Shown here piece after piece: positions 1 through 45,037 of a DNA stretch of 64,000 nt. The position numbers were made by a program, and so were the translations under genes. Each line of letters starts with the position of its first letter. The stretch's first letter is position 1. The DNA is from Salegentibacter tibetensis (GTDB lineage: Bacteria > Bacteroidota > Bacteroidia > Flavobacteriales > Flavobacteriaceae): NCBI RefSeq assembly GCF_020164485.1, contig NZ_JAIQZA010000022.1:1-64000 (forward strand), given 5' to 3'. The notes beneath the pieces are model-generated. The model was not told the DNA's origin. It searched no databases and saw nothing but the letters and a program-made list of their open reading frames with translations.

Positions 1-121
1 ATAGAACTTAAGGGGGAAAGTCTAAGAAAAAAACTGTAATATTGTCATTAACTTATCTTTTTGACCAAAATCCTTAGGGGGGTCAGTATGGCCGGAATGA
101 GGGGTCAGCATCACCGGAATA
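1..121. mobile_element. End of an IS21-like insertion sequence (rest lies left of window)
   Basis: Positions 77-99 and 100-120 are two similar direct repeats of about 22 bp, each built as G-rich/GGTCAG/purine-pyrimidine/CCGGAAT. Such multiple short terminal repeats are typical of the ends of IS21-family (IstA/IstB) elements in Bacteroidota. Coding homology of the adjacent reverse transcriptase stops at about 122-125, exactly where this repeat begins, so the IS end lies near 120-124. No transposase reading frame is visible in the 76 bases to the left, so the genes must lie outside the window. Family assignment rests on terminal-repeat architecture only. Confidence 0.6.
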
Positions 122-1216
122 TCCATAGTGGTTGAGTGTTTCCTTTCTTTGGTCTTCACCCCATCCATTGTTCCTTGATGTAAGCTGTTTTAACCGCTGT
201 TTCATCTTTCGGATACTTGTTGGATGGGCTCGGAGTCTACCTTTTCCGCGACTTCGGTAGAAGGTATGTCCAAGGAATTTGACTTTAGAGACGTGAGAAA
301 CATTTGTTTTCTCTCTATTCACTTTCAAGAATAACTTATCCTCGATAAAAGGAATAATATTCCTTAGCGTTCGCTCCGCACTCCTCCTACTCTTACAGAG
401 TAGGAGACTGTCGTCCGCATAGCGGACGAAGCGGTGCCCCCTTCTTTGGAGCTCCTTGTCCAACTCATTTAACATTACATTGCTCATCAGTGGACTTAGT
501 GGTCCTCCCTGAGGAACCCCCAGCTTTGTTTCTTCAAACTTATTCCCGATCATTACTCCAGCCCTAAGATACTTGTGAATGAGCGAGATTACCCGCCCAT
601 CCTTTATCGTTCTTGACAAGATCTCCACAAGTTTACTCTGGCTTACCTTGTCGAAGAACTCTTGCAGGTCCATATCGACAGCATAGATGTAGCCATCGCT
701 GATATAATCCCTGCATTTCTTAAGTGCCTGATGAGTATTTCTACCGGGTCTAAAGCCGTAGCTGTGGGTAGAGAATTGCTCCTCGTAAATAGGAGAGAGT
801 ACCTGAGTAATAGCTTGTTGGATTACCTTGTCTACCACTGTGGGCAAACCTAGTAAGCGCTTTCGGCCATTCTCTTTGGGTATTGTTACTCGTCGTGCTG
901 GTTTGGGACGATATTTTCCGTCCCTTATGGATTGTAATAGCTCATCTCTGTTTTCTACAAGATAGTCCTGTAAGGAGTCGATTTCCATCTTGTCTACTCC
1001 TCCCTTTCCTTTGTTGCTCCGAACCTTTTTGTAAGCCCGGTTCAGGTTGGAAGGAGACAGGATCTGTTCTAATAATCCATCTTCTAAAGTAGTAACATCA
1101 GTAAGGTTGTTTTCAGTTATCCTCATAAAGGTCTGCCCTGCTGCATAGCTGTCGGGTTCCGCCCTATCCTTTTGCAGCCAGGTATCTTTCGATATTTTCT
1201 GCATTCTTCCCTTCAT
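83..1216 (-). pseudogene. ltrA: Group II intron reverse transcriptase/maturase, C-terminus truncated
   Basis: The 377-residue frame carries the reverse transcriptase domain (about residues 60-325) with RT blocks such as HSYGFRPGRNTHQAL near 151-165, GVPQGGPLSPL near 233-243 and the catalytic YADD at 266-269. The start of the maturase (X) domain follows, but family similarity ends at LNHY (361-364). The last 13 residues are translated IS end sequence. The usual GWxNYF segment, the rest of domain X and any HNH domain are missing. Start could be the ATG at 1216 or at 1204. Intact relatives are normally above 400 residues. Function is probably lost, although polymerase residues are intact. Confidence 0.9.
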
Positions 1217-1995: not shown

Positions 1996-3312
1996 TCACT
2001 CAAATAACCAGCGATATATGTCGTTTCCGTTAGCGAATAGCACTAGTGCAATTAAAATAAAGAACCCTATTAATTGGGCGACTTCCATAAATTTTTCATT
2101 AGGTGTGCGGCCGGTAACCATTTCATATAATAAGAAAACTACGTGCCCGCCATCTAAAGCAGGAATTGGCAGTAAATTCATTACGGCAAGAATAATAGAA
2201 ATCAGGGCGGTAGTCCCCCAGAATCCTTTCCAATCCCAGGTATCTGGAAACATTCCTCCTATGGCACCAAAGCCTCCTAATTGCGTTGCTCCTTTTTCTG
2301 TGAAAACATATTTAAATTGATAGATATAATCCTTTAGAGTCCAGTAACCATAATCGAAACCTTCTTTTATACTTTCGGCAAAACCGTATTTCTTTTGTTT
2401 AACCTCAAAATCGCGCATCACGCTAAAACCAAGAATACCATCATCATCTGGGGTAACCAGACTACTTTTAATATCGTCTCCCCGTTTATAGACAATCTCT
2501 ATTTCCTTGTTTTTATTTTCATCGGTAATCGCCCTTATTTCGTGCCAATATCCAATCTTCTGATTATTAACAGAAATAATGCTGTCCCCTTTTTTTAATC
2601 CGGCAAGTGCTGCCGTTTGTTCTGCCAAAACACTATCTACAACCGGTTTTTGTATAGGTATAAACGGTTGCATAATGCCTTTTTCAAACATTTCGCTACC
2701 TATTCCCTCCGGAATTTGCACCGTTTCTTCCTGTCCATTAGGATGTAATACAGTTATTGATTTAACATCACGCATAAATAAATGGCGGTTAATATCAAGG
2801 CTGTTTTCAAATTCCTGACCGTTTACCTGTAATACCCTGTCGCCATCTTCAAAACCAAATTGTTTAAATTCTTCAGCAATAGCAAACCCCTCTGGCATTT
2901 CATCTGGACCAACATAATTGGTTCCCCAAACAAAAATAATCATCATGTAAATTAAAAATCCAAGCACAAGGTTTACCGTTACCCCTCCAAGCATAATAAT
3001 AAGTCGCTGCCAGGCCGGTTTACTTCTAAATTCCCAGGGCTCAGGTGGTTTTGCCATCTGCTCCTTATCCATACTTTCGTCTATCATCCCGGAAATTTTC
3101 ACATAACCGCCCAGAGGCAACCATCCAATTCCGTAGACCGTTCCGCCAATTTTCTTCTTAAAGAGTGCGAATTTCACATCAAAGAAGAGGAAGAATTTTT
3201 CTACCCTGGTTTTAAATATTTTGGCGGGAATAAAATGCCCAAGTTCGTGTAAGACTATAAGTAAAGATAAGCTTAACAGTAACTGTATGGCTTTAACTAT
3301 AAATGGATCCAT
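1996..3312 (-). CDS. rseP: RIP metalloprotease RseP (site-2 protease)
   Basis: An intramembrane zinc protease of 438 residues that in other bacteria cuts anti-sigma factors after a first periplasmic cut. Membrane segment 1 holds the zinc motif HELGH at 22-26. A long periplasmic part contains PDZ-like modules, seen around GFEDGDRVLQVNGQEF and again around GLKKGDSIISVNN. The C-terminal membrane region has the second active-site motif in NLLPIPALDGGH. The longer frame opens at 3342, but that codon lies inside a candidate -7 box (3340-3347), so the ATG at 3312 is preferred. The usual flavobacterial neighbour dxr is not here. Its natural client is not shown by the sequence; the ECF sigma pair at 43 kb is a possibility only. 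Confidence 0.95.
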   Translation of the reverse strand: MDPFIVKAIQLLLSLSLLIVLHELGHFIPAKIFKTRVEKFFLFFDVKFALFKKKIGGTVYGIGWLPLGGYVKISGMIDESMDKEQMAKPPEPWEFRSKPAWQRLIIMLGGVTVNLVLGFLIYMMIIFVWGTNYVGPDEMPEGFAIAEEFKQFGFEDGDRVLQVNGQEFENSLDINRHLFMRDVKSITVLHPNGQEETVQIPEGIGSEMFEKGIMQPFIPIQKPVVDSVLAEQTAALAGLKKGDSIISVNNQKIGYWHEIRAITDENKNKEIEIVYKRGDDIKSSLVTPDDDGILGFSVMRDFEVKQKKYGFAESIKEGFDYGYWTLKDYIYQFKYVFTEKGATQLGGFGAIGGMFPDTWDWKGFWGTTALISIILAVMNLLPIPALDGGHVVFLLYEMVTGRTPNEKFMEVAQLIGFFILIALVLFANGNDIYRWLFE

Positions 3313-3339
3313 GCGTAATGCTTCAAATTTTAAATCGCA

Positions 3340-3347
3340 CAAAAGTA
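3340..3347 (-). promoter_or_regulatory. Candidate -7 box for rseP
   Basis: TACTTTTG on the minus strand fits TAnnTTTG and would start transcription near 3333, about 20 nt before the chosen start codon. No clear -33 TTG is seen at the right distance. Confidence 0.4.
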
Positions 3348-42470: not shown

Positions 42471-42540
42471 TTGATTCTGGACGCAACCATTTCTATAAAG
42501 TTGCATCTATGAAGTAGATAACCCTAATAATATATCTGAA

Positions 42541-43020
42541 ATGAAAAGAATTGCCATATTAATAGTACTGGCCCTAAGCCTGTCCAGCTGTAGTAATGAT
42601 GATGATGGCCCTAATGTAAATTATGACTTCGCAAAAATAACCAATGCAGACCTCCCCGGTTTTTTTGAAGTTGGCGAAAGTTATGATCTGGAAATAAGTT
42701 ACGAGTTGCCCAACGCCTGTCACAGTTTCATCACCTTTGATTTCGATGAATACACCGATGAAGAAAATGACTCTACCTATGTTATAGAAATTTATGCGGT
42801 AACTTCTTATGATGCCAATCTAACAGAATGTACAGAGGAAGGAAGTTTAAATGAGTCTAAAACTATTAGAGATCTGCGAATTACCAGTGAAAATTACAAC
42901 AATTACCAATTTAAGCTCCTTACAGGTTTTGATGAGGATGAAGAAGCAGAATTTTTAATCGTTGATGTTCCGGTGGGAGAACCGGAGCCGGAAACACCAG
43001 AAGAGAATACTAACGAATAA
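42541..43020 (+). CDS. Lipoprotein, probably surface-exposed, in the sigma-factor operon
   Basis: A 159-residue lipoprotein with signal MKRIAILIVLALSLSSC. The acidic stretch directly after the lipid-bearing cysteine (SNDDDG) resembles the lipoprotein export signal that sends Bacteroidota lipoproteins to the cell surface. The mature part is very acidic and beta-rich, has two further Cys (in ELPNACHSF and NLTECTEEG, maybe a disulfide), and ends in a Pro/Glu tail. No family recognised. The ECF sigma gene starts 11 bases downstream. Confidence 0.8.
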   Translation: MKRIAILIVLALSLSSCSNDDDGPNVNYDFAKITNADLPGFFEVGESYDLEISYELPNACHSFITFDFDEYTDEENDSTYVIEIYAVTSYDANLTECTEEGSLNESKTIRDLRITSENYNNYQFKLLTGFDEDEEAEFLIVDVPVGEPEPETPEENTNE

Positions 43021-43031
43021 CAACTAAGTTA

Positions 43032-43574
43032 GTGAGTTTAGAAGAACTCATACATCAGTGTAAAAAGCAGGATATTAGGGCACAGGAAAAGCTTTACCGT
43101 TTATACTCCGGTAAACTTTTTGGCCTGTGCCTTAAATATTCCAATAACTACCAGCAGGCTGAAGACAACCTGCAGGATGGTTTCATCACTATTTTCAAGA
43201 AAATAAATCAATATGAAGATAAAGGTTCTTTTGAGGGCTGGATGAAGCGAATTGTAATTAACACAACCCTACAAAAGCACCGAAAGGAAAAATATTTTGA
43301 AATCATTAATGAAAATCTTTTAGAAGATCCCGAGATTGAAATCGATGATGAAGAAATTACTACTGATTTTCTATTAAAAAGCATTCAGGATTTACCGGAA
43401 CGCTACCGGCAAATTTTTAACCTCTATGCCCTGGACGGATTTTCACATAAAGAAATCGCAGAAATGCTGAATATAAGTGTGGGAAGTTCAAAATCTAATC
43501 TGGCTCGAGCCAGGCAGATTTTAAAAAGCAAAATAGAAAATTACCTCAACGATAATAAGGTGCAATCGTTATGA
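43032..43574 (+). CDS. ECF-type RNA polymerase sigma factor
   Basis: A 180-residue sigma-70 family protein with region 2 (about 18-85: RLYSGKLFGLCLKYS, AEDNLQDGFITIFKKI, SFEGWMKRIVINTTL) and region 4 (about 120-170: LPERYRQIFNLYALDGFSHK, ISVGSSKSNLARARQIL), and no region 1 or 3. Start is GTG; an in-frame stop lies just upstream and no ATG is available. Its stop overlaps the ATG of the next gene by four bases, the usual layout of a sigma/anti-sigma pair. Confidence 0.93.
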   Translation: MSLEELIHQCKKQDIRAQEKLYRLYSGKLFGLCLKYSNNYQQAEDNLQDGFITIFKKINQYEDKGSFEGWMKRIVINTTLQKHRKEKYFEIINENLLEDPEIEIDDEEITTDFLLKSIQDLPERYRQIFNLYALDGFSHKEIAEMLNISVGSSKSNLARARQILKSKIENYLNDNKVQSL

Positions 43575-45037
43575 AAGAAAGAAAGAACATAGACCGGCTA
43601 TACCAGGAAAAGTTCAGGGACTTTGCCCCCGAACCAAGTCCTGAGTTATGGAATAATATTGCCGGGAAATTGCAGGAGAAAGATAGAAAAAAACCTTTTA
43701 TAATTCCACTATGGATGAAGCTTAGCGGTGTTGCAGCTGTTTTAGCTTTAATACTGGGCGGCTATTTTTTCAGCCAGAATAATTTCACCGAAACACAAGT
43801 AGTTTTTGAATTAGAAGAAACTGCTAAACCTCAAATAAATTTACCAGAAATCAATAAAAACGAACAGTTTATAAATGCTTCAGAAATATTGGAAAATGTT
43901 AATGAAGCTACTTATTTAACTTCTGAAGGTGCCAAAACCTCATCAGCTAATAACAATTCGGCTATAGCTTCAGAAAACACAAATGCTCAAGCCAAAAAAA
44001 CTTCAGTTAATTCAGCTAAAACAGAAGATACAGCAGACCAAATCACAGAAAATTCAGACCAACAAAATTCGGCGATAGCGGAAGAAAATCATCCAGATTC
44101 CGAAGAAGGAATAATTCAGAATCAGGATTTCATCAATCCAAATTCAAAAAACGAACACAATCCTGAAGCGATCGCAGAAAATAAGCTGGATAGTATTGAA
44201 AAAGAAAAACAACTTTCAATTAAGGATAGCCTGGAAGTAGCAGGACAATTAGCCCAAATTGAAGAAGAAAAAAATCTGGAATTAGACGAAGAATTAATTG
44301 CTGAAGCTGCTAAAAAGAGACTTCGTTTAAGCACTTTCGCAGCTCCCGTCTTTTATGATAATATTGGTAAAGGAAATGCCATAGACCCCCAATTTGCGGG
44401 TAATACTACCAGCTCACAGGTTAGTATGGCTTATGGCATGAACCTGGCTTATTCAATTTCAGAAAAAATCAAGATAAGAAGCGGGGTTTCTAAGGTAGCG
44501 ATGAGCTATAACGTGGAAGATATTGTATTTACTGCCTCCATAAATCCCAGCTCTATAAGTTCCATAAATTACGAATCAGATAGAAATAATGTTCAATTGG
44601 AAAATGCGGCGCCAAGCGGCCTTCCCGGCAATACCGACAGTAGTAATAATACTTTCTCATCTATCAATAATATGGCGTTACCGGGCGAGATCAACCAGCA
44701 ATTTGGTTTTATTGAGGTTCCACTGGAAATAGAATACAGTCTCATAGACAGCAAAATAGGTCTTAATCTAATTGCAGGCGGAAGTAGTATGTTTTTAGAT
44801 GAAAATAGTATCCAGGTAAATACCAATAACCAAAATACGAGAATTGGGGAAGCAAATAATATCAATAAAGTGAGTTTTAGCACGAATGTTGGTGTAGGAC
44901 TGGATTATAAAATTACCGATAGTTTTATGCTGAATTTAGAACCTATTTTTAAATATCAGCTGGATACTTTTAGTGATGCACCCGGTGTACGCCCGTTTTA
45001 CTTCGGAATATATTCTGGAGTAAGCTTTAGATTTTAA
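43571..45037 (+). CDS. Anti-sigma-like membrane protein with C-terminal beta-barrel domain
   Basis: A 488-residue protein coupled to the sigma gene. Residues 1-46 are cytoplasmic and charged (RLYQEKFRDFAPEPSPELW, an anti-sigma-like start). One membrane helix covers about 48-67 (LWMKLSGVAAVLALILGGYF). A long Ser/Asn/Glu/Lys-rich linker (about 80-240) could cross the periplasm. The C-terminal part (about 245-488) has alternating amphipathic strands and ends in GIYSGVSFRF with terminal Phe, as outer-membrane beta-barrels do. The order suggests one chain linking the cytoplasm to the outer membrane. Anti-sigma function is inferred from gene order and N-terminus. Confidence 0.75.
   Translation: MKERKNIDRLYQEKFRDFAPEPSPELWNNIAGKLQEKDRKKPFIIPLWMKLSGVAAVLALILGGYFFSQNNFTETQVVFELEETAKPQINLPEINKNEQFINASEILENVNEATYLTSEGAKTSSANNNSAIASENTNAQAKKTSVNSAKTEDTADQITENSDQQNSAIAEENHPDSEEGIIQNQDFINPNSKNEHNPEAIAENKLDSIEKEKQLSIKDSLEVAGQLAQIEEEKNLELDEELIAEAAKKRLRLSTFAAPVFYDNIGKGNAIDPQFAGNTTSSQVSMAYGMNLAYSISEKIKIRSGVSKVAMSYNVEDIVFTASINPSSISSINYESDRNNVQLENAAPSGLPGNTDSSNNTFSSINNMALPGEINQQFGFIEVPLEIEYSLIDSKIGLNLIAGGSSMFLDENSIQVNTNNQNTRIGEANNINKVSFSTNVGVGLDYKITDSFMLNLEPIFKYQLDTFSDAPGVRPFYFGIYSGVSFRF

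Follow-up and report, generated by a model that had tools for sequence, protein, structure and literature searches.

A candidate dual membrane-spanning anti-sigma factor and its putative lipoprotein regulon in Salegentibacter tibetensis and other Flavobacteriaceae

The three-gene operon of S. tibetensis

We examined a three-gene operon on the plus strand of Salegentibacter tibetensis contig NZ_JAIQZA010000022.1 (RefSeq assembly GCF_020164485.1), at positions 42541 to 45037 of the first 64,000 nucleotides of that contig; this whole stretch was analysed and is called the window below. The three open reading frames (ORFs) that an initial annotation had placed here from the sequence alone were all present. 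They comprise a lipoprotein gene (42541..43020, 159 aa), an extracytoplasmic function (ECF) sigma factor gene with a GTG start (43032..43574, 180 aa), whose product matches Pfam Sigma70_r2 and Sigma70_r4_2 above their cut-offs, and a gene for a protein of 488 aa (43571..45037) that overlaps the sigma gene by 4 nucleotides. By its ORF, conservation, structure prediction and Foldseek matches, the 488-residue product is a candidate dual membrane-spanning anti-sigma factor of the Dma type, referred to here as the barrel protein. The operon promoter, CGCAACC-N15-CATCT (42482..42508, plus strand), was identified as a pattern match that is conserved upstream of related operons.

Predicted architecture of the barrel protein

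An AlphaFold2 model of the barrel protein was built on 76 sequences, namely the window protein and 75 relatives, and reached a mean predicted local distance difference test score (pLDDT) of 68 and a predicted template modelling score of 0.51. Residues 1-46 (43571..43708), predicted to be cytoplasmic, hold two predicted helices at 4-15 and 24-39, and Pro22 and Trp27 are invariant in the alignment. A predicted inner-membrane helix (residues 48-67; 43712..43771) is kept across the 76 aligned sequences. It is followed by a disordered tether (residues 68-247; 43772..44311), which has pLDDT <50 over 69-216 and closes with a helix predicted at 220-246. The remainder is a predicted outer-membrane beta-barrel (residues 251-488; 44321..45034), the strands of which run from 251 to 487, mostly at pLDDT >90 except for a long loop at about 321-370. 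Phe is the last residue in 76/76 aligned rows, and several barrel strands show alternating hydropathy. The arrangement that the initial annotation had read from the letters, one membrane helix at 48-67, a long linker and a barrel ending in Phe, was thus upheld by both model and alignment.

The fold of the C-terminal part was then compared with known structures and families. In a Foldseek search of the PDB, the top matches of the barrel were OmpA, OmpW, Ail, NspA and OprF-type barrels (E down to 1.2e-8), and Pfam OMP_b-brl_2 was matched at E<=0.01 by 57 of the 76 family members. At the other end of the protein, basic residues precede helix 48-67 and none follow it closely, so that by the positive-inside rule the N-terminus would lie inside the cell. 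The tether between helix and barrel measures 124-230 aa (median 188) in the 76 sequences, and its identity to the window protein is 18%, versus 44-50% for the N-terminus, helix and barrel. Its length seems to be conserved and its sequence not, as would be expected of a spacer that crosses the periplasm.

Conservation of the locus

Sixty genomes, the own genome included, were searched for the barrel protein: 38 gave a match at E<=0.001, and 35 of these reached E<=1e-20. When named genomes were scanned, at least 563 relatives were confirmed, and the best 80 loci, mostly Flavobacteriaceae by title, were analysed. The sigma gene adjoins the barrel-protein gene in 80/80 of these best-matching loci (the sigma ORF of L084 being split), and the full order of lipoprotein, sigma and barrel protein occurs in 73/80, so that the gene trio sought in other genomes was recovered. 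A strict rule called the trio in 68/80 loci; reading of the 12 misses added L040, L072, L079, L084 and L090, and left seven loci with no lipoprotein ORF before the sigma gene (L058, L062, L075, L092, L103, L107 and L109). The gene recA is found upstream in 73 or more of the 80 loci (70 by rule and three by reading). Conservation to this extent indicates that the architecture predicted for the 488-residue protein is not a matter of chance. The barrel-protein alignment used above covers 75 of the 80 loci plus the window, five loci being omitted, and the lipoprotein alignment covers 63 of 68 loci plus the window, again with five omitted. A profile of the N-terminal part matched 79/296 genomes of the phylum at E<=0.01, own genome included; these matches were not taken to give the number of Dma proteins, because many weak ones sit in frames too short to hold a barrel.

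Relation to described systems

The same four parts have been described in Dma proteins, which lie beside ECF21 sigma genes and have been found only in Bacteroidota (PMC13088901; this paper, PMC9308784, PMC13114119, PMC9249621 and PMC5080379 are cited for the portions of their text that were available). Dma1/Das1 and Dma2/Das2 of Bacteroides thetaiotaomicron share with the operon studied here the N-terminal anti-sigma end, the membrane helix, the disordered tether, the C-terminal barrel and the adjacent ECF sigma factor; a dma1 mutation relieves das1 repression, and the effect of dma2 requires das2 (PMC13088901). Unlike the Dma systems, our operon belongs to Flavobacteriaceae, starts with another gene, and has a strict GCAACC-N15-YATC promoter and many lipoprotein genes behind that element, whereas vesiculation, a trait of the Dma systems, is not known for it. 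A second parallel is EcfO-Reo of B. fragilis and Phocaeicola vulgatus, in which a nigD lipoprotein gene, the sigma gene and the barrel anti-sigma gene bear the consecutive tags 03762, 03761 and 03760. The P. vulgatus anti-sigma factor was predicted to cross the periplasm and to end in a barrel (PMC9308784), and it is described as spanning all five compartments from cytoplasm to surface, with EcfO driving three nigD lipoprotein genes (PMC13114119). Lipoproteins thus figure in that regulon, as is proposed below for the flavobacterial operon; the latter differs in that its lipoprotein does not belong to NigD by sequence and in that its promoter element was not seen before the nigD genes examined. 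What triggers Dma and Reo proteins, and what NigD does, is given in these sources as unknown or as a proposal only. Since Dma and EcfO-Reo of Bacteroides and Phocaeicola are in print, the 488-residue protein is a flavobacterial representative of an already published architecture.

In surface signalling of the FecA-FecR-FecI kind, an outer-membrane barrel signals to an inner-membrane anti-sigma factor, which in turn controls an ECF sigma factor. There, barrel and anti-sigma factor are two proteins, whereas in the flavobacterial protein they form one chain.

Genomes carrying NigD were used for comparison. A NigD profile matched 8/295 genomes of the class, which are presumed to be Bacteroidales because they carry NigD, and five of them were followed up. 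Among 17 NigD loci read, two (L195 and L196) repeat the gene order of the window, lipoprotein, sigma and barrel protein, and in three (L197-L199) NigD and a sigma-barrel pair are divergently oriented. Profile-profile comparison of the flavobacterial barrel with the barrel anti-sigma candidates of the five genomes gave E=1e-13, and in eight relatives from NigD-carrying genomes the distance from the helix to the second barrel strand is 151-209 residues (about 218 in the window protein, likewise measured). The flavobacterial sigma profile found a barrel-linked sigma factor as its best match in 5/5 NigD-carrying genomes with such pairs; in G548 the NigD-linked sigma factor ranks second, behind that of a different barrel pair (L166). 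In a tree of 55 sigma factors, which covers loci for part of the profile matches and in which long branches were flagged, barrel-linked sigma factors and those fused to a barrel split from 15 other ECF sigma factors of NigD-carrying genomes with support 96/95. By tree and profile, the sigma factor of the window therefore groups with the barrel-linked sigma factors of NigD-carrying genomes.

Two further loci, L172 and L173, show the order sigma, barrel anti-sigma and small downstream lipoprotein, which recalls the three-gene Dma2 operon of PMC13088901.

Sigma-barrel fusion proteins

In one genus (g273, family f25), which presumably belongs to Bacteroidaceae, single ORFs, such as L175:1489-3189 (plus strand) and those of L200-L209, encode a chain in which sigma regions 2 and 4 are joined to a membrane helix, a tether and a barrel. 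By hand count, 21/60 genomes of this genus hold one or more open frames of 509-644 aa that match both ends. The helix lies within a few residues of sigma region 4, and in the 10 full-length fusions read (L200-L209) it follows region 4 directly, with no separate anti-sigma domain in any of them. In fusion P0001, all three Pfam domains score above cut-off, the helix lies at 179 and the second barrel strand near 410. In the sigma tree, the fused sigma factors are nested in the barrel-linked group. A model for such fusions is IutY of Pseudomonas putida, a membrane-held sigma factor freed by Prc and RseP, which differs in having a periplasmic anti-sigma domain, a separate outer-membrane receptor and no barrel in cis (PMC9249621). 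The fusions make proteolytic release the simplest testable mechanism.

These data bear on whether the barrel protein persists as one chain. If the tether were cut constitutively, barrel and anti-sigma end would be separate proteins that never span both membranes at once, and a tether that is predicted to be disordered and is poorly conserved would suit such a cut, the full-length 488-residue protein being known here from prediction. Against this, tether length is bounded, the barrel stands in cis in every aligned row, and P0001 keeps a similar spacing. We regard a constitutive cut as unlikely, though worth keeping in mind.

A conserved promoter element

Upstream of the first gene, GCAACC-N15-YATC(T/C) was found in 69/69 regions (the window and 68 loci) with an invariant spacer; first-order resampling gave 0.02 of 69. 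The element is present in 11 of the remaining 12 loci, in seven of these shortly before the sigma gene, for a total of 80/81 operons. In the window, the pattern CGCAACCN{14,18}CATCT has one match, at 42482-42508 (expected 0.02). The own genome has five sites with spacers of 14-18, versus one for the reversed-pattern control, and three of the five have the exact spacing: that of the sigma/barrel operon, that of L212, before a gene for a YfbK/VWA-domain lipoprotein, and that of L215, before a gene for an LVIVD-repeat lipoprotein. Two sites with other spacings were dropped, L213 as lying inside an ORF and L216 as the next gene is not a lipoprotein gene. The exact-spacing promoter of this operon family is new, by computation.

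Also in the own genome, L171 on contig C111 is a paralogous sigma/anti-sigma operon without a barrel, with a -35 of GCAACC, a -10 of CGTCT and a spacer of 16. In four genomes (G019, G020, G021 and G022), a second element lies about 1.1-1.2 kilobases from that of the operon, in the opposite direction and apparently beyond recA, as at G022:C17:80730 and 81869; no target ORF was called beside it in the flanks read (L236, L237 and L242).

Lipoprotein genes behind the element

The strict pattern was scanned over 37 genomes and gave 140 sites by our own sum. In the 15 genomes of the genus Salegentibacter there are 109 sites, versus 6 for the reversed pattern. Sites occur in 22/23 genomes with the barrel protein (E<=1e-20) versus 2/14 without it; these two are G008, which is 61% complete and has four sites, and G049, with one site inside an ORF. 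We read 112 of the 140 sites; the other 28 comprise the site before the operon itself in congeners (12) and sites from other genera (16). Eleven of the sites read lie inside open frames, six of these also ahead of a lipoprotein-like ORF, and 101 are intergenic, in Salegentibacter and relatives. A lipoprotein gene called by rule directly follows 83 of the intergenic sites. By the same rule, the background rate is 11/459 genes (3/62 in the window and 8/397 in flanking sequence), and the enrichment has a Fisher p of ~3e-68, or ~1e-28 with each family counted once. The 83 genes form about 32 families, and four of them are the operon's own lipoprotein gene; the start codon lies a median of 24 nucleotides after the -10. 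At least two acidic residues stand among the six after the lipid Cys in 69/83 of the lipoproteins, a count without a computed background rate. Acidic lipoprotein export signals after this Cys are known in Bacteroidetes (PMC5080379), and many of the lipoproteins are probably located at the cell surface. As judged by pattern and position, the element-linked lipoprotein set appears to be a new regulon. No description of a flavobacterial lipoprotein regulon or of a sigma-barrel fusion was found in the titles and abstracts searched, which is weak evidence of novelty since most subscription papers lie outside them.

The element might instead be read by one or more other ECF sigma factors, its link to this operon being cross-regulation. 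Nine ECF sigma matches (E<=1e-5) occur in the own genome, and L171 shows that another sigma factor could share the element, as its -35 is the same; its -10 and spacer, however, differ. The exact spacer ahead of nearly every operon of the family, and the way in which the element tracks the barrel protein over the 37 genomes, argue further for the sigma factor of the operon, and we give cross-regulation a small chance.

The operon's own lipoprotein

The first gene of the operon (ORF list, alignment and model) encodes a protein with a signal peptide, the lipid Cys at residue 17 (LSSC followed by SNDDDG) and a 7-strand sandwich (model pLDDT 89); its invariant Cys60 and Cys97 perhaps form a disulfide. 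No Pfam or NCBIfam family was matched above cut-off, and matches among 64 relatives were scattered. A NigD identity by sequence was rejected: NF051862 (NigD1/NigD2) was matched at E=0.016, over residues 5-37 only and with 15 bits versus a cut-off of 60. The same model was matched by 11/64 relatives (best E=0.011), and in a profile-profile comparison the alignment of NigD with the lipoprotein family was confined to the signal peptide. In the structural comparison by VIA-align, the top four of 999 chains were all Bacteroidales proteins (Z 5.3-6.7, under 8), and two of them, 3qwn and 3k6o, are NigD by sequence; three other NigD structures found by sequence (3k0y, 4j8q and 4pqx) do not appear among the 50 fold matches listed. 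Foldseek gave no match for the lipoprotein model at E<=0.001. Kinship with NigD by fold is only hinted at by these models.

The initial annotation had cast this lipoprotein as the outer sensor, which would signal from the surface through the barrel protein. Its place in the same operon in most loci agrees with that role, and the acidic residues after its lipid Cys are compatible with surface export (PMC5080379). The sensor role was not borne out: the seven loci without the lipoprotein gene keep promoter, sigma and barrel protein, and the same promoter fronts many unrelated lipoprotein genes. Because its promoter is common to these genes and it is missing from 7/80 loci, the lipoprotein gene behaves like a target gene. 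Its product appears to be one of the regulon's outputs, and a sensor function is improbable. For the gene attached to this operon, the reading thus shifts from sensor to output.

Interpretation

The features established by computation, namely the architecture, the order of the genes, the promoter element and the lipoprotein genes that follow it, fit best with a surface-to-cytoplasm switch of the Dma/EcfO-Reo type in Flavobacteriaceae, in which an anti-sigma factor tethered to a barrel frees the sigma factor, which then drives the operon and a lipoprotein regulon; we put the probability of this reading at roughly three in four. We infer that the helix of the 488-residue protein anchors it in the inner membrane, that the first 46 residues of the protein would bind the sigma factor in the cytoplasm, and that the disordered tether of about 180 residues would cross the periplasm to a barrel folded into the outer membrane. 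A chain that carries both the barrel and the anti-sigma end could convey the condition of the outer membrane to the cytoplasm. If the barrel were misfolded or disturbed, the chain would be cut or change its state, and the sigma factor would be freed; the simplest trigger would be failed or disturbed insertion of the barrel, followed by cleavage, as of IutY by Prc and RseP (PMC9249621). The freed sigma factor would read GCAACC-N15-YATC and restart its own operon, the first gene of which would be one of the outputs, together with lipoprotein genes, most of them encoding an acidic N-terminus like that of surface-exported lipoproteins. Hence, of the initial claim that one polypeptide passes an outer-membrane or surface signal to a cytoplasmic sigma factor, the single chain stands as a predicted architecture, published likewise for Dma and Reo, and the lipoprotein as outer sensor does not.

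Several points weigh against this interpretation. The N-terminal and membrane-helix blocks of the model are modest (pLDDT just 50-77), and a PDB sequence search gave no convincing relative of the N-terminal domain, the best match (E=0.0077) being a ribosomal protein. Kinship with Dma, Das, Reo and EcfO was judged by architecture and relatives rather than by their own sequences, and a term search found no mention of proteolysis or BamA in PMC13088901. Among the 17 NigD loci, 11 have no adjacent sigma gene, and in L153 the sigma gene has a 182-aa partner lacking a barrel. In the presumed Bacteroidales, the stretches examined ahead of nigD and sigma genes showed no element, with a looser look-alike at L166. 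The barrel-linked side of the sigma tree is not exclusive to barrel-linked sigma factors, since it also takes in four own-genome paralogues (L171, L177, L183 and L189) that lack a barrel partner. The element was first found as the common sequence upstream of this very operon, locus L079 does not have it, and G039 has the barrel protein and no site. Finally, 10 of the 101 intergenic sites have no downstream ORF by rule, 8 precede other genes, and two (L235 and L245) had been flagged as intra-ORF by an earlier rule. That the C-terminal part might instead be a soluble beta domain in the periplasm, like that of ordinary anti-sigma factors, is scarcely credible: the window protein alone stays under the Pfam OMP_b-brl_2 cut-off (E=3e-4), but the model of this protein alone, which the initial annotation had named as a check, has a high-confidence barrel there with outer-membrane-protein matches in the PDB, and the alternating strands and C-terminal Phe of its relatives point the same way.

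RseP, which the initial annotation had named as a possible protease, is plausible in that role by analogy. An ORF with RseP-like motifs, as judged by eye, lies at 1996-3342 on the minus strand, about 40 kilobases from the operon, and nothing links it to the sigma/barrel operon. In PMC12578637, on the beta-barrel assembly machinery (BAM) complex, none of the searched sigma terms is present, and PMC12045153 does no more than cite an earlier paper on the Dma systems (Pardue 2024). Elsewhere in the window, an ORF at 83-1216 (minus strand) resembles a reverse transcriptase of the group II intron type, likewise by eye.

Given that hundreds of related loci exist in the family and that the exact promoter stands in 80/81 operons, the regulon is readable in the sequences of many genomes, and the flavobacterial regulon is testable. 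As a tentative suggestion, which we hold with less than even confidence, Flavobacteriaceae may use a barrel-tethered anti-sigma factor to gauge barrel assembly or lipoprotein export and to reset their surface lipoproteins through one exact-spacing promoter, and in the presumed Bacteroidaceae genus the sigma factor itself may be one chain anchored in both membranes, which would be cut loose to act.

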